From positions 1 to 56,102 of the forward strand of contig PLOR01000050.1 in the NCBI GenBank assembly GCA_003142185.1: a stretch of DNA of 56,102 nt. The letters run 5' to 3'. Source of the stretch: Bryobacterales bacterium (GTDB lineage Bacteria > Acidobacteriota > Terriglobia > Bryobacterales > Bryobacteraceae). Under the pieces are notes generated by a model. The model did not search any database. It was not told the DNA's origin and saw nothing but the letters and a program-made list of their open reading frames with translations. Below, one piece after another: positions 4,548 to 36,212 of the stretch (position 1 is its first letter; every line of letters starts with the position of its first letter). A program made the position numbers and the translations under genes.

Positions 4548-4712
4548 GATCGAACCATGCCTATGAAGAATTCCCCTCACCCCGGAGGTTTTGTCCCGCG
4601 CCAACGTATTGAGCCCTTGGGCTTGAGCGTCACGAACGCGGCCCGCCCTTGCATCCGGGCCAATGAAAAGCGGCAACCCTGCCAGCGTGCAAGGCGATAC
4701 AGTTAGACCGCC

Positions 4713-5405
4713 GTGGTACATAGAGCCGTTTTTTTCGTGGTCGCCTTTGCGGCGTTACTGCCCCCAACTTTCGGGGCTGAAAAACCGGAAACACCCCACC
4801 TCGCGTTTGTAACCGAATACGTTCGTGAACTCGGGGAATTTGAAACTCTCCGGGCTGCAGGTGAGCAGGAACAAGCCGCAGGTAAGGAGGATGAGGTTTT
4901 TGCAAACGCCATCCATACCAGTACTTCAATCCAGCTAGAGCTAGGGTCACAGATTCGCATGTTGAAGGGCATGCTTCTTAAGCCGCCGTTCGATGAGCTC
5001 ACTAAGAATCTTGCTGGGTTCTACGCGCAAAAAATGGAGCTACATCAAAGACTGATCGATATCAGCACCGCCTTTTTGGGTGGCCCGAAACCGGGTGCCG
5101 ATTACGAGAAAATGGCCGCCGAGATGCCTAAAATAAGGGCCTCACTCGAATTTGTTGACCGCGCCATCGTTGAGGCCACACCTTTGATTTTTGCGACTCT
5201 CATAGACCAAAGACCAGACTCCAAAAATCACGTAAGCCACCTGATAATCACAAAGGCAGAGAAAGCGAAGCTGCTGGACGACCTTACTATCCGGTTTGGG
5301 TCGAAGCTCGATCAGAAGAGTCAGAACTTTACAGTCAGCGCCGCCTCAGTTTTGAAGGCATACCTTCTGAAAGGTTTTAAGTGTTCTGATGAGCCTTGGG
5401 AGTGA
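4713..5405 (+). CDS. Exported protein of unknown function
   Basis: 230 residues with a clear Sec signal peptide (hydrophobic core about residues 4-18, probable cleavage after T-F-G-A). The mature part is mostly helical and charged with no family I recognise; only one cysteine is present, near the C-terminus. The GTG start at 4713 is the first in-frame start giving the signal peptide. Base composition is visibly less GC-rich than neighbouring genes and codon use is less biased (many A/T third positions), suggesting acquisition by transfer. It stands alone after pyrF, with 165 non-coding bases before it. Confidence 0.65.
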   Translation: MVHRAVFFVVAFAALLPPTFGAEKPETPHLAFVTEYVRELGEFETLRAAGEQEQAAGKEDEVFANAIHTSTSIQLELGSQIRMLKGMLLKPPFDELTKNLAGFYAQKMELHQRLIDISTAFLGGPKPGADYEKMAAEMPKIRASLEFVDRAIVEATPLIFATLIDQRPDSKNHVSHLIITKAEKAKLLDDLTIRFGSKLDQKSQNFTVSAASVLKAYLLKGFKCSDEPWE

Positions 5406-5477
5406 GGCCCCCCGCGCGGGAGATGTTTCAAAAAAGGGGAGGCGCTAAGCTTGCCGCAAGGAAGGACGTGAAATGAA

Positions 5478-5714
5478 ATGTTAGGGCAGCAATGGAAGGC
5501 TCTTTGTAATGCGGCGGTCGCTGAGGCCGCCGAAAAGTTCGGCTCGACTTGGGCCCTCTCCACTGCCGAGTGCCCTGCGAACAGCACAACGTGCTTTGCT
5601 GACTTCTCGAAGAAGGGTGAGAAGCCGAGACGAATCATCGTGTCGATAGGACAGCAAACGGACGAGGCCATAAAGGCGGAAATAGTCAGACAACTTGCCG
5701 CCCTCGACCGGTAA
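5478..5714 (+). CDS. Small hypothetical protein
   Basis: A 78-residue frame beginning at an ATG with a purine-rich stretch (GGAAGGA) about ten bases upstream. The product is soluble with three cysteines (residues 10, 32 and 39) and no recognisable domain. It follows the exported protein at 4713-5405 by 72 bases in the same direction and shares its less GC-rich composition, so the two may have arrived together. Function unknown; short length leaves doubt that it is a real gene. Confidence 0.45.
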   Translation: MLGQQWKALCNAAVAEAAEKFGSTWALSTAECPANSTTCFADFSKKGEKPRRIIVSIGQQTDEAIKAEIVRQLAALDR

Positions 5715-5809
5715 GCTCTTTCACGCCCCCGTGTCTCGCAAGGGGCGGGTTTCAGGACGATCCGTTCAGTGTGACTTGCGCGGCGTTCCCCGCGGTCAGA
5801 TCATAAGGT

Positions 5810-6070
5810 ATGACACCGCAAGAGCATCTCCTAAGAATCAGGGTTCCGATGGAACGAGCGTGCTCCACGCCGAGCTGTCCCAGTACGGAAGTCGAGACCC
5901 TTACCGTCGGCCGCGTTGAGCTACCCGATTCGGAGCCTCGCGAGTACTCTTATAGTGGGTTCTGTTCGGGTTGCCACCGGCAATGTGCCGGGGTGTTTTT
6001 TGTTCGGCGCGATGACATGACTATTGAGATCGCCTTGAATGCTGCCGAGCTTGCGTCTCGCAAAGGGTAG
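5810..6070 (+). CDS. Small cysteine-rich (possible zinc-binding) protein
   Basis: An 86-residue frame preceded by ATAAGG close to its ATG. It has an N-terminal C-x-x-x-x-C pair (residues 18 and 23) and a C-x-x-C-H-x-x-C cluster around residues 52-59, an arrangement that could bind one zinc ion as in zinc-ribbon proteins. The C-terminal part contains predicted strand segments. No family was recognised. It ends the run of three less GC-rich small genes between pyrF and the convergent epimerase gene. Confidence 0.5.
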   Translation: MTPQEHLLRIRVPMERACSTPSCPSTEVETLTVGRVELPDSEPREYSYSGFCSGCHRQCAGVFFVRRDDMTIEIALNAAELASRKG

Positions 6071-6204
6071 GTCTTGCGACGAAAGCCGGAGGCCTGAAAT
6101 CAGGCCCGTGCGCGTCTCGTGATCCTGTCGCAAATAAGCCGGTGAAATACGGCCGTAAGCGCCCCCCGGCCATACAGCGGAGATGCCCCGCTTCGCCCAC
6201 GGGC
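6071..6204. other. Convergent intergenic region with a hairpin
   Basis: This stretch separates the convergent small cysteine-rich gene and the epimerase gene. It contains a short perfect hairpin, GGCCTGA-AA-TCAGGCC, at about 6090-6105. It lacks a T tract, so a terminator role is only possible. Nothing else is seen. Confidence 0.35.
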
Positions 6205-7296
6205 CTACGCCGCCCTCAACCCCAACCCCGCCCGCTCCGGCAATATCAGCTTCCCCTTCTCCACTCTCACGCCTGTGAACGGGTCGTTGGCGATGAGCAG
6301 ATTGCCGTCGAGATCGGCGTAATCTACCAGGGGCGACAGGTGCGCGGCGGCGGTTACCGTCACCGAGCTCGACACCATGCAGCCCAGCATCGTCTTCATG
6401 CGCAGCGATTTCGCCACCGCGATCATGCGCCAGGCCTCCAGCAATCCGCCGCTCTTATCCAGCTTGATGTTGATGCCGTCGTATGCGTCTTTCAGTTTCG
6501 GGATGTCGGACGCGTGCCGGCAGGCCTCGTCGGCGATGATCGGGATGTGCACACGCGCGCGCACCCAGCGCGTCTCTTCCACCATTTCCGCCGGCATCGG
6601 CTGCTCGATGAACTCGACCCCCTGCTTCTCCAGCCAGTTGATCTTGCGTACCGCTTCTTCCTTGTCTCTCCAGCCTTCATTGGCGTCGACGCGAAGGGGC
6701 TTCGAAGTCACGCTGCGCACGGCTTCGATGGTCGGCTCGTCGGTGGCCAGACCCACCTTCACCTTGAGCACCGGAAAATCCGCGGCCTCCCGCGTCTTCT
6801 GCCGCGTGATCTCGGGTGTGTCGATACCGATCGAGAACGTGGTCACCGGCGCGTCCCCGCGATCGAGTCCGAAATACGAGTAGAGCGGGATGCCCAGCTT
6901 CTGACCCACCCAATCCATCAGCGCGATATCGATGGCGGCCTTGCCCGCCCAGGCCCCTTCCACGCGTCCGAAAACGGCGGCCATCACTTTGTCGAACTGC
7001 ATCGGATCCGCCGCCAGCAGCAACCCGCGCACCGATTCCACCGCCTGGCGCGCGCCCTCGGCGTCCTCGTGATAGCGGACGATCGGCGCGCCTTCGCCGT
7101 GACCGGTGATGCCGTCGCGCGTGTAGCTCACGTGCAGCGTGTCGCGGAACTGGCTCGACGACATGGTGGTGGTCCAGGTGTGCCGCAGGTTGAGTCGGAC
7201 GATTTTGGCTTCGAGCGCCGTGCCTCCGCTTGCCGCCGTCACCCGGCTCAGCGGCCAGGCCGCCGCCGCGATCATCACGAAGTTTCTCCGGTTCAT
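6205..7296 (-). CDS. Dipeptide epimerase (L-Ala-D/L-Glu type), exported
   Basis: An enolase-superfamily enzyme of the muconate-lactonising/AEE group, 363 residues. All key residues are visible: K-x-K at 178/180, metal ligands Asp204 ('RVDANEGW'), Glu231 ('EFIEQP') and Asp256 ('IIADEA'), the opposite base Lys278 ('INIKLDKSGG'), and a D-L-D motif at 328-330 that in Ala-Glu epimerases binds the dipeptide amino group. The N-terminus M-N-R-R-N-F followed by a hydrophobic stretch looks like a Tat signal, unusual for a family usually found in the cytoplasm. Its start overlaps by four bases the stop of the NlpC/P60 gene, the same pairing as YkfC-YkfB in Bacillus, so a role in recycling murein peptides (L-Ala-D-Glu) is likely. 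Confidence 0.88.
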   Translation of the reverse strand: MNRRNFVMIAAAAWPLSRVTAASGGTALEAKIVRLNLRHTWTTTMSSSQFRDTLHVSYTRDGITGHGEGAPIVRYHEDAEGARQAVESVRGLLLAADPMQFDKVMAAVFGRVEGAWAGKAAIDIALMDWVGQKLGIPLYSYFGLDRGDAPVTTFSIGIDTPEITRQKTREAADFPVLKVKVGLATDEPTIEAVRSVTSKPLRVDANEGWRDKEEAVRKINWLEKQGVEFIEQPMPAEMVEETRWVRARVHIPIIADEACRHASDIPKLKDAYDGINIKLDKSGGLLEAWRMIAVAKSLRMKTMLGCMVSSSVTVTAAAHLSPLVDYADLDGNLLIANDPFTGVRVEKGKLILPERAGLGLRAA

Positions 7297-8123
7297 TTCA
7301 CTCTCCTCATCGCCACCAGCAGGCGCGACCAGTGCGGGTCATCCAGACTGTCTATGCGCACCACGGGCGTCTGGTAGGTGGTGGCGCTGATGAATTGGCT
7401 GTCGCCCAGATACATACCCGTGTGCGTGATGCGCTCGGGCGAAGCGCCGAAGTACAGCAGGTCGCCGGGCGCGAGATCCGTCCGGCTCACCGGCTTGAGA
7501 CCGCTCCAATCCGCCTGCGGCTGCGCATCGCGCGGCAGCATCACGCCGTGACGCCGCTCGAGCATTTGGACGAGGCCCGAGCAATCGTAGCCGAAGCTGG
7601 AAGTTCCGCCCCAGGTGTACGGCAGTCCCAGAAAACGGTGGCTTAGCGCCAGCATCTCCGCGGTGTTTAGGGGCGCCTCGTTGAGGGTCACATCGCCCGC
7701 TTGCACCCAGCCTGCGCGCCCATCCGCCAGCCGCGCCTGGCGCCAGCGCCCCTGCTCGTCGCCGGTAGTTTCCAGTCTTGTTTCGAACGGCACGGTGAGC
7801 ATGGGCGCGTGCACGGTGACATCGGGCTCACGATAGATGTGCGCGAACAGGCTGGTCACAGTTGCCAGTTGCCCCGCAACGGCATAGGGCGGGCCGACCT
7901 TCAGCGCGGCCAGCGGCGCCCAGCCGGTGTATTCGTCCACGGTGCGGATCCGCGCCCAACCTTCGCGCTGTTCCAGCAGGGCCGCGTTGGCGCCGTAGAT
8001 CGCCTGCGAGACCACCCCCGCCGCTTCCGATGGTTTGGAGTACATATTCACCACCGGCCGCAGCACCACTGCGTTCGGCAACGCCGCCGCGAATAACGCC
8101 ATCGCCATGCCGATCATGACCAC
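7293..8123 (-). CDS. NlpC/P60 endopeptidase with SH3 domains (YkfC-like)
   Basis: 276 residues: a short hydrophobic N-terminus (signal peptide or anchor), two bacterial SH3-like regions (about 18-75 and 85-148), then a C40 cysteine peptidase domain. The nucleophile is Cys181 in 'YDCSGLVQ', with the histidine at 234 in 'THTGMYLG'. This architecture is that of gamma-D-glutamyl-L-diamino acid endopeptidases, which release L-Ala-D-Glu from murein peptides, the substrate of the adjacent epimerase. The first gene of a two-gene operon, divergent from the GT87 gene. The start could be one of several methionines (residues 1, 3, 6 or 8). Confidence 0.9.
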   Translation of the reverse strand: MVMIGMAMALFAAALPNAVVLRPVVNMYSKPSEAAGVVSQAIYGANAALLEQREGWARIRTVDEYTGWAPLAALKVGPPYAVAGQLATVTSLFAHIYREPDVTVHAPMLTVPFETRLETTGDEQGRWRQARLADGRAGWVQAGDVTLNEAPLNTAEMLALSHRFLGLPYTWGGTSSFGYDCSGLVQMLERRHGVMLPRDAQPQADWSGLKPVSRTDLAPGDLLYFGASPERITHTGMYLGDSQFISATTYQTPVVRIDSLDDPHWSRLLVAMRRVK

Positions 8124-8208
8124 TTCCCAGCGTACCGCAGGCGGCCCGCGCGGTCGTTATACTGGATCTTTCTCGGAAGATGGCAAGAGCAAACGGGCAA
8201 GCTAAAGC

Positions 8209-9297
8209 ATGCCCCACCATATGAAATTGCGCCACGCGATTGTGATCGCCATCCTGGTCGCCGGCATCCTCCTGCGTTTTTGGATCTTCAGCCACCTCAG
8301 CCGCGACCTGAGCGTGTGCAGCGTGGATTTCGGCGCCTTCTATGCGGGCGGGAAGCTGGCCGGCAGCTTGGCGATGTATTCGCCCGACGCGGTGTTCGCC
8401 GCGCAGGATCGCGCCATGGGCTGCCACAAGGATTACATCATTTTCATCAAGCCGCCTTTTTACGGGCTCATCATGTGGCCGCTGGCGCGGTTGCCGTTCG
8501 ATGCCGCCCTCTGGCTGTGGCGTATCCTCGGGCTGGCCGCGCTGGGCATCTTCCTCTGGCTTTGGCCCTGCGACCGCCTGGTGGCCGCCGCCGCGTGCGC
8601 CTGGTTTCTGCCCGAGGCCTCCAACTTCACCGCCGGGCAGGACGTCGCATTCGTGCTGGCGCTGGTTGCCGGAGCTTATTATTGCCTGAAAACCGGGCGC
8701 CCCATTGCCGCCGGAGTGCTCTTCGGTTTGGGCGCCATCAAGTTTCACCTACTTGTGCTGCTGCCCCTGGTGGTGTTGCGGCGCAAGCTGTGGCGAACCA
8801 TTGCTGCCGCTGCCGGCACCGTCGCCCTGCTGCTGGGAGTCGCGTTGGTGGCCTACGGCCCCGGTTGCCTGGCGACCTACCGGAACGCTTTGCGTGACGC
8901 GCGCGGGAGTCCGGCTTTCCGCAATATGGACAACCTCAACGGCTTGTTTCACGGCCATCCCATCTGGATCGCCGCGGCCGTTGTGGTTGCGCTCCTGGTG
9001 TACTTCATCAATCGCAAAGCCTCGCTGGAGCTGGCCCTGGCCGCCGTGCTGGCGGGCGGCGTTCTCATCGTCCCGCACAACACCATTTCCGACGGTCTTC
9101 TCTTTCTCCCGCTGATTCTGGAGGCTCGCCGCTTCGCTGCAGCGCCTGTGCGCGCGCTCGCCATAGTGGCTCTCATCCCGGTCCTGCCGCCCGGCGCGTT
9201 GCAGGTTGCCGTAATCCTGCTTTTGTTGGCGGCCCTGCGTAACCTCTACCTGAAGCCGGCGGCGCCGGGCGGCCAGCCAGCCGCCGCCGCCGCGTAA
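8209..9297 (+). CDS. GT87-like (DUF2029) polytopic glycosyltransferase
   Basis: 362 residues with roughly nine to ten hydrophobic segments and a GT-C architecture. The first periplasmic loop contains 'VDFGAFYAGGKL' with the acidic residue expected for GT-C enzymes, followed by 'IIFIKPPFYGLIMWPLA', both typical of the DUF2029/GT87 family, whose characterised members transfer mannose from polyprenyl-phosphate-mannose. The central 'GVLFGLGAIKFHLLVLLP' block also fits. A TATACT box lies at 8158-8163. An alternative ATG is at 8221. Acceptor and sugar are unknown. Confidence 0.75.
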   Translation: MPHHMKLRHAIVIAILVAGILLRFWIFSHLSRDLSVCSVDFGAFYAGGKLAGSLAMYSPDAVFAAQDRAMGCHKDYIIFIKPPFYGLIMWPLARLPFDAALWLWRILGLAALGIFLWLWPCDRLVAAAACAWFLPEASNFTAGQDVAFVLALVAGAYYCLKTGRPIAAGVLFGLGAIKFHLLVLLPLVVLRRKLWRTIAAAAGTVALLLGVALVAYGPGCLATYRNALRDARGSPAFRNMDNLNGLFHGHPIWIAAAVVVALLVYFINRKASLELALAAVLAGGVLIVPHNTISDGLLFLPLILEARRFAAAPVRALAIVALIPVLPPGALQVAVILLLLAALRNLYLKPAAPGGQPAAAAA

Positions 9298-9342
9298 AAC
9301 TCCGCGCCAGGGAGTATCATCATGTGTGCTATAAGGAGCGCC

Positions 9343-10158
9343 ATGAAAACGAAATCCCTGTCCGCCTTCGTCTGTCTGTTGCTCGCCGCCTGTGCTTCCG
9401 CACAGGCTCAGCCGCCCGCCAAGAAGCTGCTGGTGATCGGCGAGGTGAAAGGATACGAGCACGATTCCGTCTCGCACGCCATGGCCACCATCGAAAAGCT
9501 GGGCCGCCAGACCGGCTTGTGGGACACTTACATCCGCACCGACGCCGAACTCCTCACCAAGGCCAAGCTCACCAACAATTCGAAGAACCTGAATTATTTC
9601 GACGCCGTATGGTTCTACACCACTGGCGACCTGGGCCTCACCGATCAGCAGAAGGCGGATCTTCTCTCCTTCGTGCGCGACGATGGCAAGGGCTTCCTGG
9701 GCGCGCATAGCGCGACCGACACTTATTACAACTGGCCCGAATTCGGCGATTTGATCGGCGGCTACTTCAACGAGCATCCCTGGATGCAGGTGCACTGCAC
9801 TATTCGCACCGAGGACAAGACCTTCCCGGCCACCGCGCATTTCCCGGACAAGTTTCCCTTCTACGACGAGATCTATCAGTTCAAAGCGCCATACTCGCGC
9901 GAGAAAGTGCGTGTGCTGATGAGCGTGGACCCGGATTCGGTGGATCTCACCAACCCGAAGGTGCACCGCACCGACAAGGATTTCGCCGTCACCTGGGTGC
10001 ATAACTATGGCAAGGGGCGCGTCTTCTATTCGTCGCTCGGCCACCGCGACGAAGTCTGGGACATGCCGGACATCCAGAAAATGTGGATCGAAGCCGTGAA
10101 GTGGACGCTCGGCCTGACCGCCGGCGATGCCACGCCGAGGCCGCAGGGCGGGCACTAA
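9343..10158 (+). CDS. Exported ThuA-domain protein
   Basis: 271 residues from the ATG at 9343, which has AAGGAG just upstream and begins a lipoprotein-like signal ('LSAFVCLLLAACASAQA'; the cysteine after L-A-A could be lipidated). The rest is a ThuA-like, class I glutamine amidotransferase-like fold: 'KKLLVIGEVKGYEHDS', 'FDAVWFYTTGD', 'GFLGAHSATDTYYNWPEF' with the invariant histidine, and 'VTWVHNYGKGRVFYSSLGHRDEVW'. ThuA proteins are associated with carbohydrate utilisation, but the reaction is uncertain. An in-frame ATG at 9322 is possible but gives no better signal peptide. The gene is followed by the hairpin repeat at 10161-10232. Confidence 0.85.
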   Translation: MKTKSLSAFVCLLLAACASAQAQPPAKKLLVIGEVKGYEHDSVSHAMATIEKLGRQTGLWDTYIRTDAELLTKAKLTNNSKNLNYFDAVWFYTTGDLGLTDQQKADLLSFVRDDGKGFLGAHSATDTYYNWPEFGDLIGGYFNEHPWMQVHCTIRTEDKTFPATAHFPDKFPFYDEIYQFKAPYSREKVRVLMSVDPDSVDLTNPKVHRTDKDFAVTWVHNYGKGRVFYSSLGHRDEVWDMPDIQKMWIEAVKWTLGLTAGDATPRPQGGH

Positions 10159-10160
10159 GG

Positions 10161-10232
10161 CGTGGGGCAGGTCCCCGACCTGCCAACTTGAAAAAGAAGG
10201 CAGGTCGGGGACTGTCGGGGACCTGCCCCACG
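10161..10232. repeat. Long palindromic intergenic repeat (copy 1)
   Basis: CGTGGGGCAGGTCCCC (10161-10176) is perfectly complementary to GGGGACCTGCCCCACG (10217-10232), and inside it GACCTGCC (10177-10184) pairs with GGCAGGTC (10199-10206). The right half, 10199-10231, recurs almost exactly (one base shorter) at 30442-30473. It lies between the ThuA and PD40 genes. It is a dispersed REP-like element and may also terminate or protect the transcript. Confidence 0.8.
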
Positions 10233-10261
10233 TGACTGCGCGGTGATATGCTGATTCCGTC

Positions 10262-11833
10262 ATGCGCAATCCATTTCTGCTCGCAGCCGTTTCCTTGTTC
10301 GCGTTGGTAACGGCGCTTCCCGCCCAGACCGGCAATTCCGCGCTCGGCATTTTCGAAGCCCGGCAGGACGTGGGCGCCAACCCGATGCCCGGCGCCGCGG
10401 TGTACGATGCCCCGACCGGCGAATACCGCGTCACCGGCGGCGGAGCCAACATCTGGGCTGCCACCGATGCATTTCATTTCGTCTGGAAGCGCGTCACCGG
10501 CGATTTCGGCCTCAGCGCCGACGTGCAATTCGTCGGCACCGGGGCCGTGGCGCACCGCAAAGCCGTTCTGATGATACGCCAGGATCTCACGCCCGACTCC
10601 GCCTACGCCGATGTCGCGCTGCACGGCGACGGCCTCACTTCACTGCAATTCCGTCCGACAGCCGGCGCCGGGACTCAGGAGATTCGGTCGACCGTGAACG
10701 CTCCCCTCCACATCCGCATTGAGCGCCGCGGCAATTCCTTCATCGCCTATGCAGGCAAGTCCGGCGAACCCTGGACGGCCACCGCTCCACAAGAGGTGAA
10801 CCTGCCCGGGAATGTCTATGTCGGACTCGGCGTATGTTCGCACGATGCAGGCGTCCTCGAAACCGCCATCTTCAGCAATGTACAGCTCAACCAAGAGGGA
10901 CATCCCATCGTGAGTAACCCACCACCACACCCGCCCGCCTCGCACTTTCGCAGCAAGATTACCATTTACGACCTCGCCACCCGCTCCACTCGCGTGGTAT
11001 ATCAGGCCGACCAGGTGATCGAAGCACCCAACTGGTCGCGCGACGGCAAGTTTCTTCTGATCAACACCGAGGGCAACCTGTACCGGCTGCCGTTGCAGGG
11101 CTCCGGCGAGCCCAAGCCCGAGCAGATCGATCTCAGTCCGGGCAGCTACCTGTGCAACAACGATCACGACTTGTCCCGCGACGGTAATTGGCTGGCGTTT
11201 TCCGCGTCCAGCCCGTCCTCGCACCAGTCGCAGGTCTACCTGGCCAAAGCCGTTGGCTCCGGCGTGCGCTTGATGACGCCGGCCGCGCCCAGTTACTTCC
11301 ACGGCTGGAGCCCCGATGGCAAGTGGCTGGCATTCGTGGGCCAGCGCGAGGGCGCGTTCCACCTCTATCGCGTCTCCGCCGACGGCGGCGCCGAGCAGCA
11401 ACTCACCTCCCAGGGCACTTACGACGACGGCACGGAGTACAGCCCCGACGGCAAGTGGATCTACTTCAACTCCAACCGCTCCGGCAGTTGGCACGTCTGG
11501 CGCATGCCGGCCGATGGCGCCGGCCCCGGCGATGTCAAGGCCGAGCAAATCACCAGCGACGACTGGGAAGACTGGTTTCCGCACTTTTCGCCGGATGGAA
11601 AACACATGCTGGTGTTTTCCTTTCCCAAGGGCACCAAGACCCACAACGACCGCATGGATGGCGTTGTCCTGCGCCTGATGCCGGCGCCGGGTGAGAAACT
11701 CGAACCGGCGAAGCTGGACATCCTGCTCCGTTTCTACGGCGGCCAGGGCACCATCAACGTCAATTCCTGGTCGCCCGATTCGCGCCAGTTCGCCTTTGTC
11801 GTGTATGAGCCGCTGCCCGCCGCCAAGCCGTAG
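10262..11833 (+). CDS. Exported TolB-like beta-propeller (PD40) protein
   Basis: 523 residues. Residues 1-22 form a signal peptide ending at A-Q-T. Residues about 30-215 resemble a concanavalin-like jelly roll of the DUF1349 type ('FHFVWKRVTGDFGLSADVQFVG', 'AGVLETAIFSNVQL'). From about 235 on there are repeated PD40/TolB blades with the S-x-D-G-K-x-[LI] signature ('NWSRDGKFLLI', 'DLSRDGNWLAFS', 'GWSPDGKWLAFV', 'EYSPDGKWIYFNS', 'HFSPDGKHMLVFS', 'SWSPDSRQFAFV'). Likely periplasmic or outer-membrane binding protein; ligand unknown. A TATGCT box lies nine bases before the ATG. Confidence 0.85.
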   Translation: MRNPFLLAAVSLFALVTALPAQTGNSALGIFEARQDVGANPMPGAAVYDAPTGEYRVTGGGANIWAATDAFHFVWKRVTGDFGLSADVQFVGTGAVAHRKAVLMIRQDLTPDSAYADVALHGDGLTSLQFRPTAGAGTQEIRSTVNAPLHIRIERRGNSFIAYAGKSGEPWTATAPQEVNLPGNVYVGLGVCSHDAGVLETAIFSNVQLNQEGHPIVSNPPPHPPASHFRSKITIYDLATRSTRVVYQADQVIEAPNWSRDGKFLLINTEGNLYRLPLQGSGEPKPEQIDLSPGSYLCNNDHDLSRDGNWLAFSASSPSSHQSQVYLAKAVGSGVRLMTPAAPSYFHGWSPDGKWLAFVGQREGAFHLYRVSADGGAEQQLTSQGTYDDGTEYSPDGKWIYFNSNRSGSWHVWRMPADGAGPGDVKAEQITSDDWEDWFPHFSPDGKHMLVFSFPKGTKTHNDRMDGVVLRLMPAPGEKLEPAKLDILLRFYGGQGTINVNSWSPDSRQFAFVVYEPLPAAKP

Positions 11834-28649: not shown

Positions 28650-28690
28650 GCCGGGCTGGCGCCCGGCGGTTGGCCGGTCGGGGACCGGCC
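28650..28690. repeat. Two adjacent GC-rich hairpins
   Basis: GCCGGGC-TGGC-GCCCGGC (28650-28667) is followed by GGCCGGTC-GGG-GACCGGCC (28672-28690). They occupy the gap between the Uma2 stop and the next promoter. Possible terminator for the Uma2 transcript or a REP cluster. Confidence 0.65.
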
Positions 28691-28711
28691 TCACTCTGCT
28701 ATTCTCGGAAT

Positions 28712-30388
28712 TTGCGCAAACCTGATCTCCCCCGTCCCGACACTTCCCGCTGGCTGAATGCGGCTCTGCTGGCGCTGGCGGCGCTGTTCCTGCTGGGGCT
28801 GTTTTCTACCGAGCTGGCGGATACGGATGCCTGGTGGCATCTGGCGTCGGGGCGGTACATCGCACACACACACCGGCTGCCGGCGCCGGATCCGTTCGCC
28901 TACACGACCGCGCGCGCGCAGGATGCTTACCCCGGCGAGGCAGCCACGCGGCGCTTCAACCTGACGCACGAGTGGCTGGCGCAACTGGCCATGTACGGTT
29001 TCGAAGCGGCGGGCGGCATGGGCGCGGTGGTGCTCTGGAAGGCGCTGCTGCTGACGCTGCTGTGCGGCGCGGTTGGCTGGACGGCGGCGCGGCGCACCGG
29101 TTCGCTGCTTTGGGGAATCGCGGCGGCGCTGGCGGCGTCATCGCTGGCAATCGAGTTCGCGCACGACCGGCCGAGCATCCTGAGCTACGTTTTCACGGCG
29201 GTGTTTCTCGCCATCTGCGAACGCGGGCGCCGGCTATGGCTGCTGCCGGTGCTGTCGCTGGTTTGGGCCAACTGCCACGGCGGATTTTTCCTGGGATGGA
29301 TCATCGTGGGCGCCTACACAGCCCAAGCGTTGCTGCGCCGGACGGACGTGCGGCGCTGGCTGGCGGCGAGCCTGGCCACCATCGTGGTTTCTGGCGCGAA
29401 CCCGAACGGCTTCGGCGCAATCGAGGCTGTCTTGCGGTACCGGCAGAGCCCGTTGCAAGCGTCGCTGATCGAATGGTCGCCGGCGAGTTTATGGGGATCG
29501 CCGTATGCGTTCGACCTGCTGCTGTATGCGGCGGCGCTGACCATGATCTGGTCGTGGCGGCGGGTGCGGCCGGCCGATTGGCTGCTGGCCGCGGCGTTGG
29601 CGGCAGCGGCGTTGACGGCTTTCCGCAATGAAATGCTAGTGGGAGTGCTGGCGCCAATCCTGATTGCGGACTATTTTCCGTGGAAGCGGCGCCTGCCACG
29701 CGCGGCGCGATACGCGGCTGCGGCGTTGCTGGCGGCTGGGTTGGTTTGGGGCGCCGGCACGGGACGATTCTTCCAGTTGCGCGCGGCGGAGTGGCGTTTT
29801 CCCGTGGAAGCCACTCGCTTTCTGCGCGAGCACGGCATCCGCGGGCCGCTGTTCAACACCTACGAGTATGGCGGCTATCTGATCTGGCAGGGAGAGCCGG
29901 TGTTCATCGACGGCCGGGCGTTAAGCGAACAAGTGTTTCAGGACTATCGGGTGATCCTGGGTTCGCCGCCGGGCGACCCGGCGCGCGGGCAGACGCTCGA
30001 ACGCTACGGCGTGACGGCGATTGTGGCCAACGCCTTCGAATACAACTCGGGCACGCTGTATCCGCTGGTGCCGGCGCTGATGGCGCCTTCCGAGACGAGC
30101 TGGCATTTGATCTACGAGGACGCGCAGGCGCTGATTTTCGTGCGGGACCTGCCGGTGGGAGTGGCCGCGCTGCCCGCCGGACGGGTGGATTCGCACCTGG
30201 AAAACGAATGCCGGCTGCATGTGGAGCGCGACCCGGAATTTTCCTTGTGCGCGCGCACGCTTGCCAGTTTGTATTTGCGGGTGGGCGATCGCGAGCGGGC
30301 GCGGCGCTGGTTGAAGTATTACCTGGACCATCCTTATGGCGACGACCCGGAAGCGCAGCGGGCGTACGTGCAGTTCTTTGAGCGATAG
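28712..30388 (+). CDS. GT-C-like polytopic membrane protein
   Basis: 558 residues from a TTG start. About ten or more membrane segments cover residues 15-370; the first extracytoplasmic loop carries 'LADTDAWWHLASGRYIAHTHRLPAPDPFAYT' and then 'THEWLAQLAMYGFE', an arrangement resembling GT39/oligosaccharyltransferase-type GT-C enzymes with acidic residues after the first helix. The C-terminal 190 residues are soluble ('FNTYEYGGYLIWQGEPVFIDGRA', then a TPR-like 'LCARTLASLYLRVGDRERARRWLKYYL'). TATTCT ends six bases before the TTG, which favours this start although GTG at 28670 is in frame. Activity unproven. Confidence 0.7.
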   Translation: MRKPDLPRPDTSRWLNAALLALAALFLLGLFSTELADTDAWWHLASGRYIAHTHRLPAPDPFAYTTARAQDAYPGEAATRRFNLTHEWLAQLAMYGFEAAGGMGAVVLWKALLLTLLCGAVGWTAARRTGSLLWGIAAALAASSLAIEFAHDRPSILSYVFTAVFLAICERGRRLWLLPVLSLVWANCHGGFFLGWIIVGAYTAQALLRRTDVRRWLAASLATIVVSGANPNGFGAIEAVLRYRQSPLQASLIEWSPASLWGSPYAFDLLLYAAALTMIWSWRRVRPADWLLAAALAAAALTAFRNEMLVGVLAPILIADYFPWKRRLPRAARYAAAALLAAGLVWGAGTGRFFQLRAAEWRFPVEATRFLREHGIRGPLFNTYEYGGYLIWQGEPVFIDGRALSEQVFQDYRVILGSPPGDPARGQTLERYGVTAIVANAFEYNSGTLYPLVPALMAPSETSWHLIYEDAQALIFVRDLPVGVAALPAGRVDSHLENECRLHVERDPEFSLCARTLASLYLRVGDRERARRWLKYYLDHPYGDDPEAQRAYVQFFER

Positions 30389-30542: not shown

Positions 30543-31202
30543 GTGAGAGCTCATTTGAAGCGCGTCCTCTTAATCCCGATTTTTGCGTGTACGTTTATCG
30601 CTCAAACCGCGCCGCTGGCGATGGTGGTTCTGAATACAACGGGGTGGGGCGGCGGGCGCATACCGGCAAGCTGGGAGATCAAGGTAAACCATGGCAAGCC
30701 GGTGGTTTCGGTGTGCAAGGACGCGGATACGGCCTGCCTGCACCTGTTAAGCATCAGCTCATCGTTCTCACTCGAAAAGTCGGTGGATGTGGATCCGGCG
30801 CAGATGCCGTACCTGACCTGGAGCTGGAAGGTGGCGCAACTTCCCGGCCGCGGGGATTTCCGCAAGTCGTCGACGGACGATCAGGCCGCGCAGTTGCTGG
30901 TGGCGTTCAGCGACCGGCGCGTGATTTCCTACATCTGGGACACGCGCGCGCCGAAAGGAGCGATGGAGAGCGCGAGCTCGATTCCGCTGCTGCGCATCGT
31001 GGCAGTGGTTTGCGAATCCGGGGCCGGGCAAGCGAACCAGTGGATTGAAGAAAGCCGCAACGTGGCGGCGGATTACGCGCGGGCGTATGGCAAGCCGGCG
31101 CCAAGGGTGAAGGGCCTGCGCATCCAGATCAACTCGCAGCATACCGGCACCGTAGCCGAGAGCTACTTCGGCGACGTGGCTTTCCGCAGCACGCTGCAAT
31201 AG
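30543..31202 (+). CDS. Exported DUF3047 protein
   Basis: 219 residues, GTG start, with a signal peptide (residues 1-26). The mature part matches DUF3047: 'GWGGGRIPASWEIKVNHGKPVVSV', 'YLTWSWKVAQLPGRGDFRKSSTDDQAAQLLVAFSDRRVISYIWD', 'RNVAADYARAYGKPAPRVKGLRIQINSQHTGTVAESYFGDVAF'. The fold is predicted as a beta-sandwich and the function is not known. It is only four bases ahead of the epimerase gene and is the first gene of the ceramide-type operon. An envelope role linked to those lipids is therefore a reasonable inference, not a demonstrated one. Confidence 0.82.
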   Translation: MRAHLKRVLLIPIFACTFIAQTAPLAMVVLNTTGWGGGRIPASWEIKVNHGKPVVSVCKDADTACLHLLSISSSFSLEKSVDVDPAQMPYLTWSWKVAQLPGRGDFRKSSTDDQAAQLLVAFSDRRVISYIWDTRAPKGAMESASSIPLLRIVAVVCESGAGQANQWIEESRNVAADYARAYGKPAPRVKGLRIQINSQHTGTVAESYFGDVAFRSTLQ

Positions 31203-31206
31203 CACC

Positions 31207-32184
31207 ATGATTCTCCTCACCGGCGGCACGGGCTTCGTTGGCAGCCATGTGCTGGAACGGTTGCGCGCGGATGGCGCGCCGGTTCGCTGCCTGGTGAGAC
31301 CGAAGGCGGGAAGAACGGTGGATGCGGGTTCTTTGGGCGCAACCGAAGTTGTGGCGGGCGACCTGGAGACGGGCGCGGGGCTTGAAGAGGCTCTGGCGGG
31401 TGTGGAAACGGTGATCCACCTGGCGGGGATCACCAAGGCGTTGCGGCGGGAGGAATATTACGACGGCAACGTGCGCGCCACCACGAATCTTCTGCTGGCC
31501 ATGGCGGGAGGCGGCGCGCGGTTGGTGCACGTGAGCTCGCTAGCGGCGATTGGGCCGTCGGAAGCGGCCAACCGGCCGGTGGATGCTGAAACCGAGCCGC
31601 ATCCGCTTTCCGACTACGGCAGGAGCAAGCTGGAAGGCGAGCGGCTGGTGCGGGCCAGCCTGCCGGACGCGGTGATTGTGCGGCCGCCAGTGGTGTACGG
31701 GCCGCGCGACACGGATGTCTTCCAGTTTTTGAAGCCGGTGGCCAAGGGGTGGTCGCTCCAGATGACCGGCGGCGAGCGCTGGTTCAGTGCGATTTACGTA
31801 GGCGACCTGGCGGCGGGGCTGGTCCGGCTCGCGGCTTCGCAGGCGGGCGCGGGGCGAACGTATTATATGGCGCAGGAACCGCCCGTTTCCTGGAGTGGGC
31901 TGGCGAAGTGCGCGGCGCGCATCATGGGAGTGAAATTGCGGGTGGTGCGGATACCGCCGGCGCTGGCGCTGGCGATCGGGGAATGCGCGGATGGGTGGGC
32001 GCAACTAACCGGGAAGCCCGGCATCATCTCGGAGGAAAAGATGATCGAAGGGCGATGCGCGGCGTGGACCTGCGACACCCAGCCGGCCCGCACGGAATTG
32101 GGGTTTGAGGCGACGACGGATCTTCAGCACGGGCTGGCGGAGACGCTCCAGTGGTACAAAGAGGCTGGATGGCTGAGCTACTGA
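31207..32184 (+). CDS. NAD-dependent epimerase/dehydratase, CerR-like
   Basis: 325 residues, extended short-chain dehydrogenase. NAD(P)-binding 'ILLTGGTGFVGSHVLERL' at the N-terminus, 'VIHLAGITKALR', 'LVHVSSLAAIGPS', the catalytic Y-x-x-x-K ('DYGRSKLEGERL'), and 'AVIVRPPVVYGPRDTDVFQFLKPV'. Many members are sugar-nucleotide enzymes, but the position with spt and a GNAT-type acyltransferase points to the bacterial ceramide reductase CerR, which reduces the 3-keto group after acylation in Caulobacter. The downstream PAP2 gene overlaps it by 16 bases. Confidence 0.82.
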   Translation: MILLTGGTGFVGSHVLERLRADGAPVRCLVRPKAGRTVDAGSLGATEVVAGDLETGAGLEEALAGVETVIHLAGITKALRREEYYDGNVRATTNLLLAMAGGGARLVHVSSLAAIGPSEAANRPVDAETEPHPLSDYGRSKLEGERLVRASLPDAVIVRPPVVYGPRDTDVFQFLKPVAKGWSLQMTGGERWFSAIYVGDLAAGLVRLAASQAGAGRTYYMAQEPPVSWSGLAKCAARIMGVKLRVVRIPPALALAIGECADGWAQLTGKPGIISEEKMIEGRCAAWTCDTQPARTELGFEATTDLQHGLAETLQWYKEAGWLSY

Positions 32185-33047
32185 AGGTCTCGGCGGCAGA
32201 CCGGCGGTTCTGGGCGGTCGACAAAGTCATTCTTGGTTATTTGGTATTCACCAGCGTTCTACTGGTGGGGTGGTGGAGCGCCATACCGAATGCGGCGGCA
32301 CTGGCCGCGGCGCACCTGGGCGGCGTAGCGCTGCTGCTGATCGAAATCAAGGTACCGAACCCCACCAGTTGGTATTTTCGCTGCTGGTATCCCTTGCCGT
32401 ACGTAGGGGCCTGCTACAAAGAGATGGCGCTGCTGGTCCCGGCGATCCGCCACGGCAACGCCGACCGCTGGCTGGCCGCCGTCGATTTTCGTTTTTGGGG
32501 CGCGTATCCGACCATCTGGCTGGAGCGGATTTACAGCCCGGCGCTCACCGAATATTTACAGATCGTGTACACGCTGTTTGTGCCGGCGGTGCTGCTGGTG
32601 CCGTTTCTATTGTGGCGCAAGCGGCGGCGCGGAGAGTTCCAATATTGTGCGTTTTTAATTGCGTTAGGCTATTTGGCGTCTTATGTGGGCTACCTTCTGG
32701 TGCCGGCGCTGGGGCCGCGGTTTCTGCTGAAACCCTTGGAACACTTGCCGTTACGGGGGCTGTGGCTGTTTCAAAACATGCAACATTCGCTGAACAGGCT
32801 GGAATCCACGGCGTACGATTGCTTTCCCAGCGGGCACACGGAACTGACGATTCTGGCGTGCTGGATGAGCCGGATAGTATCAAACCGGTTGTTTTGGGTC
32901 TATTTCTGCTACACACTGTCGATCATTTTTGCTACAGTTTATCTTCGATACCACTATACGGTCGATCTGCTCGCAGGGGCAGCCCTGGCGGTGACCCTGA
33001 TTTTAGCTTCACCATTTTGTTACCGCATTCTGCGGGAAAGGGCGTGA
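32169..33047 (+). CDS. PAP2-superfamily membrane phosphotransferase (IPC-synthase-like)
   Basis: 292 residues with about six to seven membrane segments. The catalytic signature is in the C-terminal third: 'CFPSGHTELTIL' (PAP2 motif 2, S-G-H) and 'RYHYTVDLLAG' (motif 3, H-Y-x-x-D). This pair is the form seen in inositol-phosphoceramide and sphingomyelin synthases and in the PAP2_3 group, which move a phospho-head-group between lipids. Located in the ceramide-type operon, it is best read as the enzyme adding the head group to ceramide or removing a phosphate. The lipid donor is unknown. ATG 32169 was chosen; TTG 32166 and GTG 32151 are nearby alternatives. Confidence 0.8.
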   Translation: MAELLKVSAADRRFWAVDKVILGYLVFTSVLLVGWWSAIPNAAALAAAHLGGVALLLIEIKVPNPTSWYFRCWYPLPYVGACYKEMALLVPAIRHGNADRWLAAVDFRFWGAYPTIWLERIYSPALTEYLQIVYTLFVPAVLLVPFLLWRKRRRGEFQYCAFLIALGYLASYVGYLLVPALGPRFLLKPLEHLPLRGLWLFQNMQHSLNRLESTAYDCFPSGHTELTILACWMSRIVSNRLFWVYFCYTLSIIFATVYLRYHYTVDLLAGAALAVTLILASPFCYRILRERA

Positions 33048-33051
33048 ACGT

Positions 33052-34167
33052 TTGGGAGGAATCGAGGTCGCGGTAGCGGAAGGCAAGGGCGGCCTGAAGC
33101 AGTTCGTCGAACTGCCATATAGGCTCTACCGGAACGAACGGCACTGGGTGCCCCCGTTACGCATCGCGGTGAAGGAGCTGCTGGACCGGGAGAAACATCC
33201 GTTTTACCGCAATGCCGAAGCCGAGTTCTTTCTGGCGCTGCGGGATGGAGAAGTGGTGGGCCGGATCGCGGCGGTGCTGGATAAGGCCTACAACCGTTTC
33301 CATGACGAGGAGGCGGGCTTTTTCGGCTTCTACGAATCGATCGACGACAAAGCGGTGGCCAAAGCCCTGCTGGACCGGGCGTGGCAGTGGCTACAGAAGC
33401 GGGGCGCGACGGTGATGCGGGGACCGGTGAATCCATCCACCAACTATGAGTGCGGGATGCTGATCGACGGCTTCGATTCCGATCCGATGGTGATGATGCC
33501 GTACAACCCGCGCTACTATCCCGAACTGATGACCGAGGCCGGTTTGCGCAAGGCCAAGGATCTGTATGCGTACGGCAGCAGCGTGGCCGGCGTCGGTACG
33601 GAGAAAAGCGAGCGGGTGGCGGAGAAGGCGGTGGCGGCGGCGGGGATTACGGTACGCCAAATCGACCTGAAGAACTTCAATGCCGACGTGGAGCGGGTCT
33701 GGCAAGTTTACAATTCGGCGTGGGAGCGCAACTGGGGATTCGTGCCCATGACGCGCGAAGAGTTCGCGCTGATGGGCAAGGAAATGAAGCAGATCCTGAA
33801 GCCGGAGCTGGTGTTGATCGGCGAGGTGAAGTCGCGCGTGGTGGGGTTCGCGATCGCGCTGCCGGATGTCAACCAGGCGCTCAAGCCGGCGGGGGGTAGG
33901 CTATTCCCCACGGGATTAGTTAAAATACTGTATTATCAGCGTTTGATAAAAAGCGTTCGGGTTCTGGTGCTGGGCGTGTTGGAAGAGTATCGCGCGTCCG
34001 GGCTGGCAGCGGCTTTCTACGCGACCCTGACGCGCAACGCCCGGAAGTTGGGCTATAGCGATTGCGAAATGTCTTGGATCTTGGAAGACAACGTACTTAT
34101 GAACCGGTCCCTGGCCATGATGGGGGCGAAACGGAATAAGACGTACCGAATTTATGAATGGAATTGA
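33052..34167 (+). CDS. GNAT-fold acyltransferase, bacterial ceramide synthase-like
   Basis: 371 residues of a family often annotated only as N-acetyltransferase or hypothetical. Landmarks: 'LKQFVELPYRLYRNERHWVPPLR', 'HPFYRNAEAEFFLALRDGEVVGRIAAVLD', 'GFFGFYESIDD', 'VMRGPVNPSTNYECGMLIDGF', 'MMPYNPRYYPELMTEAGLRKAKDLYAY', and a C-terminal GNAT-like domain ('GVLEEYRASGLAAAFYATLTRNARKLGYSDCEMSWILEDNVLMNRSLAMMGAKRNKTYRIYEW'). Such proteins include the enzyme bCerS that N-acylates 3-ketosphinganine in Caulobacter. Adjacency to spt supports the same role. TTG start follows the PAP2 stop by four bases; the spt start overlaps its end. Confidence 0.78.
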   Translation: MGGIEVAVAEGKGGLKQFVELPYRLYRNERHWVPPLRIAVKELLDREKHPFYRNAEAEFFLALRDGEVVGRIAAVLDKAYNRFHDEEAGFFGFYESIDDKAVAKALLDRAWQWLQKRGATVMRGPVNPSTNYECGMLIDGFDSDPMVMMPYNPRYYPELMTEAGLRKAKDLYAYGSSVAGVGTEKSERVAEKAVAAAGITVRQIDLKNFNADVERVWQVYNSAWERNWGFVPMTREEFALMGKEMKQILKPELVLIGEVKSRVVGFAIALPDVNQALKPAGGRLFPTGLVKILYYQRLIKSVRVLVLGVLEEYRASGLAAAFYATLTRNARKLGYSDCEMSWILEDNVLMNRSLAMMGAKRNKTYRIYEWN

Positions 34168-35411
34168 GAAAGATGCGCCTTTCTACTAGCGACGTCGCCG
34201 GCAAGAAAAGGGGCAGCGGAACGAACGACATTTTCGAAAAATGCCGGAACTTCACTCGTCCGGGTGATCTCCAGTCCGCTGGGCTCTACATGTACTTCGA
34301 GGTCTTTGGAGATCGCGAGGGATGCGGGCCTGGGGAGGTCCGCATAGGGAAGCGGAAGGTGTTGATGTTCGGGTCGAACGATTATCTCGCCCTGATCACG
34401 CACCCCAAGGTGAAGGAAGCCGCGGCCCAGGCGCTGAAGAAGTATGGCAGCGGATGCAGCGGTTCACGCTTGTTAAACGGCACGCTGGACCTGCATGTGA
34501 AGCTGGAAGCGGATCTGGCCGCGTTAATGCACAAACAGGCGGCGATCACCTTCGGCACCGGATTCCAGGCGAACTACGCCACGCTCAGCGCGCTGACGGA
34601 AAAGGGCGACGTGATGGTGTGCGACCACAATCTGCACGCCAGCCTGGTGGAAGGCGCGCTGCGTTCGCCGGCGCGGACGGTGCGCTTCCGCCACAACGAC
34701 ATGGAGCACTTCGAGCGGTGCCTGGAGAACTGCCCGCCGGAGGAGAAGATTCTCATCGTTTCCGAAGGCGTGTTCAGCATGGAGGGCGACATCGCCGACA
34801 TGCGGGGCATCACGCGGCTGGCCAAGCCGTACGGGGCGCGGGTGTACGTGGATGAAGCGCACGGGCTGGGCTTGCTGGGCGCGAACGGCGCGGGCGCGGC
34901 CGAGCACCTGGGCGTGCTGGACGACATGGATATCGTGATGGGCACGTTCAGCAAATCGCTGGCATCGGTGGGCGGATTCATCGCTGCGGACCGCACGGTG
35001 ATCGATTATCTGAAGCACACGGCGCGGCCGTTCGTGTTTTCGGCCAGCCTGCCGCCGGCGTCGGTGGCGGCGGCGGGAGCCGCGCTGGACATCATGCGGC
35101 ACGAGCCAGAGCGGCGGCGGAACGTGCTGCGGGTGGCCCAGATGCTCCGCGATGAGCTGCGGGTGCGCGGATTTTCGGTGTTGCCCGGCGAAACGGCGAT
35201 TGTCCCGGTGGTGGTGCGCGAGGAGATGGACCTCTGCCGGCTGTGCAAGACGCTGCTCGAACAGGGGATCTACATCAACCCGGTGCTGCGTCCGGCGGCG
35301 GCGCAGAACCTGCTGCGAATTTCCTGTACGGCAGCACACACCGAACAGCACGTGGACCGGCTGGTCAGCACGCTGGTGCGGGTGATCTCGGAACTGGGCA
35401 TCGAGATTTAA
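34158..35411 (+). CDS. spt: Serine palmitoyltransferase (alpha-oxoamine synthase)
   Basis: 417 residues, PLP-dependent alpha-oxoamine synthase. Motifs favour serine palmitoyltransferase over KBL/BioF: 'GSGCSGSRLLNGTLDLHVKLE', 'DHNLHASLVEGAL' (histidine stacking on PLP), 'YVDEAHGLGLLGANGAG', the PLP-lysine motif G-T-F-S-K-S followed by 'LASVGGF' (BioF usually has T-L-G-K), and 'RPFVFSASLPPASVA'. It condenses L-serine with a long acyl-CoA or acyl-ACP to 3-ketosphinganine, the first step of sphingolipid synthesis. Start ambiguous between 34158 and 34173; the former overlaps the acyltransferase gene by ten bases. Last gene of a five-gene operon. Confidence 0.9.
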   Translation: MELRKMRLSTSDVAGKKRGSGTNDIFEKCRNFTRPGDLQSAGLYMYFEVFGDREGCGPGEVRIGKRKVLMFGSNDYLALITHPKVKEAAAQALKKYGSGCSGSRLLNGTLDLHVKLEADLAALMHKQAAITFGTGFQANYATLSALTEKGDVMVCDHNLHASLVEGALRSPARTVRFRHNDMEHFERCLENCPPEEKILIVSEGVFSMEGDIADMRGITRLAKPYGARVYVDEAHGLGLLGANGAGAAEHLGVLDDMDIVMGTFSKSLASVGGFIAADRTVIDYLKHTARPFVFSASLPPASVAAAGAALDIMRHEPERRRNVLRVAQMLRDELRVRGFSVLPGETAIVPVVVREEMDLCRLCKTLLEQGIYINPVLRPAAAQNLLRISCTAAHTEQHVDRLVSTLVRVISELGIEI

Positions 35412-35471: not shown

Positions 35472-36212
35472 CTACCGTATCTTTTCGTCCTTTTCGATCT
35501 TCCCGTCGCGGATGTGGATGATCCGCCAGGCGTGCTGCGCGATATCGTGCTCGTGCGTGACCAGGATGATGGTGTTGCCTTGTTCATGCAGACGCTCGAA
35601 CAGGGCCATAATCTCGTTACCGGTGGCCGTATCCAGGTTGCCGGTAGGCTCGTCGGCCAGCAGGATGGATGGGTTGTTGACCAGGGCGCGGGCGACGGCC
35701 ACCCTCTGGCGCTGGCCGCCGGACAGCTCATTGGGCTTGTGCAGCATGCGCTGTTCCAGGTCCACTTGCCGCATTGCCTGCTTGGCCCGCTCGAGGCGCT
35801 CGGCGGAGGACATGCCGGCGTAGATCAGCGGCAATTCGACGTTGTGCAGTGCCGTGGCGCGCGGCAGCAGGTTGAAGGTCTGGAAAACGAAACCGATTTC
35901 CTTGTTGCGGATGCGGGCCAGCTCATCGTCCGTCATCTCGCTCACCAGGTGGCCGTTGATGAAGTACTGCCCCTTGGTGGGCGTGTCCAGGCAGCCGATC
36001 AGATTCATCAGCGTGGATTTGCCCGAGCCGGAAGGGCCCATGATGGCGACATACTCGCCGCGCTTGATTTCGATATCGACACCCGAAACCGCGTGGATGG
36101 TCTGATCGCCCATCGTGTACGTCTTCCACAGATCGTAGGTGCGGATGACCACGCCATCCCGCTTGAGTTGCTCGGCGCGCTCCAGTAATGAGTTGTCGGC
36201 GACGGCTGACAT
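35472..36212 (-). CDS. ABC transporter ATP-binding protein (MacB/LolD type)
   Basis: 246 residues: Walker A 'GPSGSGKST', Q-loop '[23 protein letters not shown]' (the N-L-L-P form typical of LolD/MacB ATPases), signature '[15 protein letters not shown]', Walker B '[12 protein letters not shown]', H-loop '[11 protein letters not shown]'. It would energise an FtsX/MacB-type permease moving lipids, lipoproteins or toxic compounds. It follows the membrane-fusion protein gene by 15 bases, but the expected permease gene is absent; the ADOP permease at 43768 is far away and on the opposite strand. Confidence 0.92.

Follow-up and report, generated by a model that had tools for sequence, protein, structure and literature searches.

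Positions 30543-35411 of a 56,102-nucleotide stretch of a Bryobacterales bacterium (phylum Acidobacteriota; GenBank assembly GCA_003142185.1, contig PLOR01000050.1, positions 1 to 56,102), hereafter called the window, carry five co-directional genes on the + strand. They encode, in order, a DUF3047 protein, a CerR-like short-chain dehydrogenase/reductase (SDR), a PAP2_3 membrane protein, a bCerS-like GNAT acyltransferase and a serine palmitoyltransferase (SPT) (Table 1). With moderate confidence, we propose that this operon serves the synthesis of a phosphosphingolipid, ceramide being built first and a phospho-head group being then attached by the PAP2 protein. By homology with known enzymes, SPT would condense serine with a fatty acyl thioester, the bCerS-like GNAT would add the second acyl chain and the CerR-like SDR would reduce the keto group, yielding dihydroceramide. 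The PAP2_3 protein would then transfer to it, through the His/Asp motifs FPSGH and HYxxD and probably at the periplasmic face of the membrane, a phospho-head group taken from a glycerophospholipid, either phosphatidylethanolamine (PE) or phosphatidylinositol (PI). The DUF3047 protein, if exported, would most likely handle the product in the periplasm, which is our guess.

Table 1. Genes and motif codons of the operon in the window.
Feature	Position	Strand	Family match or remark
DUF3047 protein, 219 aa	30543-31202	+	PF11249 107.7 bits, cut-off 27; GTG start, uncertain
CerR-like SDR (putative ceramide / 3-keto reductase), 325 aa	31207-32184	+	PF01370 Epimerase 111.7 bits, cut-off 20.9
PAP2_3 membrane protein, proposed ceramide head-group phosphotransferase	32169-33047	+	PF14378 66.5 bits, cut-off 27
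PSGH motif codons, residues 226-229 of the 298-residue PAP2 open reading frame (ORF)	32826-32837	+	
HYTVD motif codons, residues 268-272 of the 298-residue PAP2 ORF	32952-32966	+	
bCerS-like GNAT N-acyltransferase, 371 aa, TTG start	33052-34167	+	PF00583 32.3 bits, cut-off 20.7
Predicted serine palmitoyltransferase, 417 aa, pyridoxal phosphate (PLP)-lysine motif GTFSKS	34158-35411	+	PF00155 (aminotransferase class I/II) 197.9 bits, cut-off 19.7

The first and third junctions are gaps of 4 bases, and the second and fourth are overlaps of 16 and 10 bases. The figure for the second junction assumes the likely PAP2 start at ATG 32169, which is shared by 7 of the 13 other rows of the PAP2 alignment; the ORF as listed covers 32151-33047, and the CerR/PAP2 overlap becomes 34 bases if this longest ORF (start 32151) is taken. 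A first-pass annotation of the window had named the five genes, their place, their small gaps or overlaps and their families, all of which agree with the ORFs and the Pfam matches. The S-G-H, H-Y-x-x-D and G-T-F-S-K-S motifs that it had listed are present as FPSGH and RYHYTVD in the PAP2 protein and as GTFSKS in the PLP enzyme.

SPT, bCerS and CerR very probably form a ceramide core, so that the operon would build ceramide. Among NCBIfam models, the PLP enzyme of the window was matched best by NF047600 (SPT) with 451 bits, ahead of bioF (373 bits) and glycine C-acetyltransferase (332 bits), all under their cut-offs. A paralog from the same genome (L157), used as a control, reached 515 bits on a BioF/Kbl-family model and 370 bits on the SPT model. 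Among solved structures, two SPT sequences came first at 346 bits, followed by a third SPT (255 bits), the best BioF/Kbl chain (243 bits) and other bacterial SPTs (236-239 bits). In a tree of 69 rows, restricted for the SPT hits to those with at least 250 bits and 330 residues and with a Rubrobacter locus as the only named reference SPT, the window enzyme fell within a 52-row SPT side (93/84), where the SPTs of families f20 and f38 formed its sister group (100/100). Of the 14 paralogs, twelve formed one separate group, and the other two joined three divergent SPT-like rows of family f31 (90/59), a placement that is unsure because of long branches. The grouping of the PLP enzyme with the SPTs of ceramide loci, apart from its own Kbl/BioF-like paralog, is well supported by these comparisons. 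A Kbl or BioF identity was rejected on the preference for the SPT model, the leading rank of solved SPTs, the paralog control and the tree; a position beside BioF/KBL in the phylogeny, which the first-pass annotation had regarded, together with a GNAT protein away from bCerS, as fatal to its proposal, is not what the 69-row tree gave.

Two points count against this assignment. The score of 451 bits does not reach the curated NF047600 cut-off of 640 bits, and the solved SPT chains that we take to be of Sphingomonas type (235-255 bits) do no better than the best BioF/Kbl chain. Besides, the substrate amino acid is not readable from these comparisons, and with a score under the cut-off the SPT-like enzyme could take another amino acid, the lipid being then a 1-deoxyceramide, a sulfonolipid or another ceramide relative. 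This is highly improbable, as a solved cysteate fatty acyltransferase scored 222 bits vs 346 bits for the best SPT, and as ceramides are reported from Solibacter usitatus, of the same order Bryobacterales, according to the title of a 2024 paper.

For CerR, the window protein reached 549 bits on the profile of its own group vs 113 bits for the next SDR of its genome, and the same profile gave 213-307 bits on the SDRs adjoining SPT or bCerS in most other loci of the phylum. The CerR limit of 200 bits is not perfectly clean because the best SDR outside the CerR group reaches 207 bits (G014; 17 genomes). This limit, together with those applied to PAP2 (40 bits in loci, 140 bits in genomes) and SPT (250 bits), was chosen after the scores had been seen, and the alignment-based searches of the phylum scored at most five candidates per genome, so that misses are possible. 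For bCerS, the profile found three weak GNAT matches among solved structures (E 0.14-0.2). Together, the GNAT and SDR profiles built from the order recovered this pair next to SPT across numerous families. The 76 strongest bCerS stretches outside the order, from at most 75 of the 110 matching genomes, contained CerR (at least 200 bits) in 33 cases, SPT (at least 250 bits) in 37 and both in 32; hence, with 44 of the 76 loci devoid of SPT, CerR or both in the stretch read, the GNAT family is not always found beside the core. A Roseomonas locus similarly combined a GNAT (319 bits) with an SDR (145 bits), with no SPT in the stretch read. The start codon of bCerS is TTG in the window and in 12 of 14 aligned relatives, with one GTG and one ATG (starts picked by script).

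The core of SPT, bCerS and CerR already named in the first-pass annotation is thus upheld by model scores, solved SPTs, the paralog control, the tree and the neighbourhoods. According to the available text of PMC11087976, the same three kinds of enzyme operate in Caulobacter, where CerR is periplasmic and Spt and bCerS are cytoplasmic; the two systems are likened here at the level of enzyme kinds. The gene order of the window differs from that of this core as described there, and the PAP2 and DUF3047 genes are additional. The operon may be regarded as a variant of the known bacterial ceramide cluster, for which a function in phosphosphingolipid synthesis is plausible.

The arrangement is conserved within the order. 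bCerS-like GNAT matches were found in 17 of 120 genomes of the order, 14 of them at 50% identity or above (strong bCerS) and three at 25-27%. The full five-gene order is present in 10 of the 14 strong-bCerS genomes (the window, L020, L021, L022, L023, L025, L026, L028, L029 and L030), L025 being counted although a contig end cuts its SPT. A contig of a Bryobacterales metagenome-assembled genome (L002) displays the identical gene order with 79-92% identity to the window, and the per-protein identity ranges from 47 to 92% across L002 and the nine other five-gene genomes. Because the same order occurs in these nine genomes and in L002, the five-gene arrangement is more than chance. Of the other strong-bCerS genomes, G110 has a locus (L024) that stops at a contig end, and in its whole genome DUF3047 is absent and CerR scores do not exceed 104 bits; G078 carries PAP2-bCerS-SPT (L031) with its CerR (412 bits) on a different contig. 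As a separate observation, genome G102 contains, off the contig of its ceramide operon, a second gene of SPT type (314 bits) with a CerR-like SDR (145 bits) immediately after it (contig C122, 29420-31492).

Across the phylum, the pair formed by CerR and PAP2 is recurrent. Within the order, each of the 10 CerR-bearing loci besides the window (L002 counted) has a PAP2 gene directly after CerR. The same holds for 8 of the 33 CerR-bearing loci selected by bCerS outside the order (families f8, f17 and f26) and, among 15 loci selected by PAP2, for all 7 that bear CerR (f13, f20 and f38). In total, seven families of the phylum show the CerR-then-PAP2 arrangement, as does one Prevotella record. In f20 and f38, whose SPTs are the sisters of the window SPT, the gene order is SPT-CerR-PAP2. 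The PAP2 proteins of f8, f17 and f26 are distant (44-94 bits) and mostly have FPSSH for FPSGH, the second His-Asp motif being kept. Three further loci (L090, L096 and L097) have, on the other strand, a PAP2 gene next to bCerS or close to it. At the genome level, a bCerS match was found in 17 of 20 genomes with a PAP2 of at least 140 bits vs 93 of 376 others. A chance insertion of the PAP2 gene was rejected in view of the recurrence of the pair in seven families. Hence, the position of PAP2 between CerR and bCerS noted in the first-pass annotation is correct, whereas its description as a gene inserted there gives way to a recurrent CerR-PAP2 pair. The neighbourhood survey that this annotation had suggested points to a PAP2 enzyme belonging to the pathway.

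Several neighbourhoods speak against the proposed pathway. In L027 (G087, 6845-10758), DUF3047, PAP2, bCerS and SPT follow each other without CerR, and the best CerR score of the genome is 114 bits, i.e., background. In L032 (G038, 7330-9271), only PAP2 and bCerS are present, the best SPT-like and CerR-like scores of the genome (303 and 134 bits) being at paralog level. Outside the order, CerR is not followed by PAP2 in 25 of the 33 CerR-bearing loci selected by bCerS, and among the 15 loci selected by PAP2, the stretch read lacks CerR in 8.

For the PAP2 protein, a role as head-group phosphotransferase is the most likely one. It is also the simplest reading of a PAP2 gene that follows CerR in a ceramide operon devoid of a kinase gene. 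Pfam ranked PAP2_3 first (66.5 bits), before PAP2 (39.2 bits) and PAP2_C (33.7 bits, cut-off 27), and VPxxGPR, DCFPSGH and RYHYxxD are invariant in all 14 alignment rows of the order. A structure model built from a two-row alignment (window and L002) had a mean pLDDT of 34.7. That the protein instead acts as a lipid phosphatase, with ceramide phosphate or a phospholipid as possible substrates, appears quite unlikely. Searched with the PAP2 profile, the PDB did give the phosphatase LpxE first, as a weak match (E 0.0097 vs 0.013 for AUR1), and LpxE also ranked highest among the likewise weak NCBIfam matches (16.4 bits, E 0.0057); both results weigh against a transferase. However, the LpxE matches span only the C-terminal third of the protein, and the NCBIfam score is far from the cut-off of 177 bits. 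The classical signature of PAP2 lipid phosphatases, K-x6-RP, is absent from all 14 alignment rows, and a phosphatase would stand in a five-gene operon that has no kinase gene.

Assuming head-group transfer, the donor may be PI or PE, and both routes look possible in the genome of the window. The PAP2 protein could be an inositol phosphoceramide synthase of the AUR1/BT_1522 type using PI, as PAP2_3 is the best Pfam model and as AUR1 is among only three solved chains matched by the PAP2 profile at E ≤1. The similarity to yeast AUR1, an inositol phosphorylceramide synthase (9ivc, 9vj3), lies in a His motif and a subsequent HYxVD (about 67 aligned positions, E 0.013-0.015); it is confined to the C-terminal part, and AUR1 has FPSLH where the window has FPSGH. 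In Bacteroides, BT_1522 is an AUR1-like PI-dihydroceramide synthase, i.e., an AUR1 homolog of a sphingolipid-making bacterium that places a phospho-head group onto dihydroceramide, and its cluster is described in the available text of PMC9246714 as an inositol-lipid cluster, not a ceramide core. On the corresponding model NF052609 (phosphoinositol-dihydroceramide synthase), the window protein scored 12.8 bits vs a cut-off of 480 bits (E 0.057). Inositol-phosphate synthase is present in 14 of 14 strong-bCerS genomes; since 112 of the 120 genomes in the order possess it regardless of the operon, it was rejected as an argument for inositol in the head group. In the genome of the window, a CDP-alcohol transferase (L182, 147-residue stretch) is matched best by inositol-type models, under their cut-offs (archaetidylinositol-phosphate/PIP synthase models, 129/180, 129/350 and 111/170 bits). 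Conversely, a phosphatidylserine synthase of this genome exceeds its cut-off (114 vs 107 bits), which would make PE an equally available donor. All in all, the AUR1/BT_1522 type with PI as donor is unlikely: the PAP2 protein retains its place in the pathway, and inositol, implied by the likeness to inositol phosphoceramide synthase in the first-pass annotation, is no more than a candidate head group. Independently, inositol-phosphate synthase has an SDR gene as a close neighbour, at no more than about 1.1 kb, in 13 of the 14 strong-bCerS genomes (in G000, contig C12, 55602-57030); G038 is the one in which this neighbour was not seen.

The first gene of the operon encodes a protein with a hydrophobic stretch at residues 8-26, near its N-terminus, and is probably exported. 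DUF3047 occurs in 12 of the 120 genomes of the order, and in 11 of these it is the first gene of the ceramide operon; the twelfth genome (G002) belongs to a different family and has no bCerS match. It was found in 11 of the 14 strong-bCerS genomes vs 1 of the 106 others (Fisher p 4e-12, a value that is only a guide because the genomes are related). In the whole phylum, DUF3047 is present in 19 of 396 genomes. There, its distribution goes against a dedicated role: of the 18 genomes besides that of the window, 13 have no bCerS, and five (G120, G136, G150, G380 and G411) have it on another contig or about 450 kb away. The comparison outside the order was one of DUF3047 positions with bCerS positions alone. 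In four DUF3047 loci of family f7 (L112-L115), no ceramide gene was found, apart from a 28-bit PAP2 in L112, and in two annotated plasmid records the neighbours of DUF3047 are cytochrome, potassium-uptake and polysaccharide genes. The DUF3047 profile gave no match among solved structures at E ≤10, and the structure model from a two-row alignment (window and L002) was unusable (mean pLDDT 35.0).

The link between DUF3047 and the operon is thus tight in the family of the window and not seen elsewhere in the phylum. The survey suggested in the first-pass annotation, in which this protein was a possible binder or transporter of the product, was positive in this family (11 of 12 occurrences in the operon) and negative outside it. 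DUF3047 could be a mere co-transcribed neighbour with an unrelated function, such as envelope maintenance, kept by common descent of the operon, a reading favoured by its distance from bCerS outside the order and by the unrelated genes around it on the plasmids. This is somewhat doubtful, as DUF3047 is lost with the operon, as illustrated by the counts in strong-bCerS and other genomes of the order, and as it remains the first gene at identities of at least 52%. Our guess is that, in the family of the window, DUF3047 is dedicated to the pathway and handles its product in the periplasm.

Other head-group systems differ from that of the window. Caulobacter also makes a phosphosphingolipid, ceramide phosphoglycerate, by means of a ceramide kinase and further transferases (CpgA/B/C), with no PAP2 protein among them in the available text of PMC11324152. 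On a Rubrobacter radiotolerans plasmid (L191, NZ_CP007515.1), SPT (380 bits), bCerS-like (378 bits) and CerR-like (214 bits) genes are consecutive on one strand, as in a ceramide core; neither PAP2 nor DUF3047 was found in this stretch. In the same locus (4710-10302), these genes are followed by an LTA-synthase-family gene (8233-10302), possibly another kind of head-group enzyme. In Prevotella sp. oral taxon 299 (L189), a CerR-like SDR (186 bits) is separated by 3 bases from the PAP2_3 gene (73.6 bits) that comes after it, as in the pair described above. This record is the sole match of the window PAP2 in the plasmid collection, with 24% identity over 65% of the protein, and a bCerS-like GNAT (174 bits) lies elsewhere in the record; the stretch itself holds neither SPT nor bCerS.

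The nearest upstream ORF (28670-30388) stops at 30388 and encodes a 572-residue membrane protein without Pfam or NCBIfam match. It was rejected as a member of the operon, being matched in 2 of 17 loci (L020 and L028), at about 1 kb or more from DUF3047, the upstream side of some of these 17 loci being cut off. Further upstream lies a Uma2-family gene (PF05685, 28085-28645). Downstream, the next gene with a family encodes an ABC transporter ATPase on the opposite strand (35472-36212).

According to the respective papers, a gene survey widened the potential sphingolipid producers from 9 to 40 phyla (PMC11334938), and a soil study in which ceramides correlated with an Acidobacteriota variant asked whether this phylum makes sphingolipids (PMC9969633). 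No literature on the CerR-PAP2 pair, or on DUF3047 with sphingolipids, was found by our searches, which are weak on subscription journals. We know of no bacterial ceramide phosphoethanolamine synthase gene. As a tentative and more far-reaching possibility, the CerR-linked PAP2 proteins of several Acidobacteriota families and Prevotella may form a family of ceramide head-group phosphotransferases separate from BT_1522, perhaps ceramide phosphoethanolamine synthases, with DUF3047 as a periplasmic protein serving the finished sphingolipid in the family of the window. What deserves bench work here is the CerR-PAP2 pair, as a recurrent one, and DUF3047, as a gene bound to the operon. Bacterial sphingolipid head-group enzymes are known in few lineages, and the PAP2 gene tied to CerR is a concrete candidate, amenable to deletion or expression in laboratory strains. 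It would help to tell, among soil Acidobacteriota, likely producers of phosphosphingolipids from those of free ceramide, while the uncharacterised DUF3047 family gains a pathway context.

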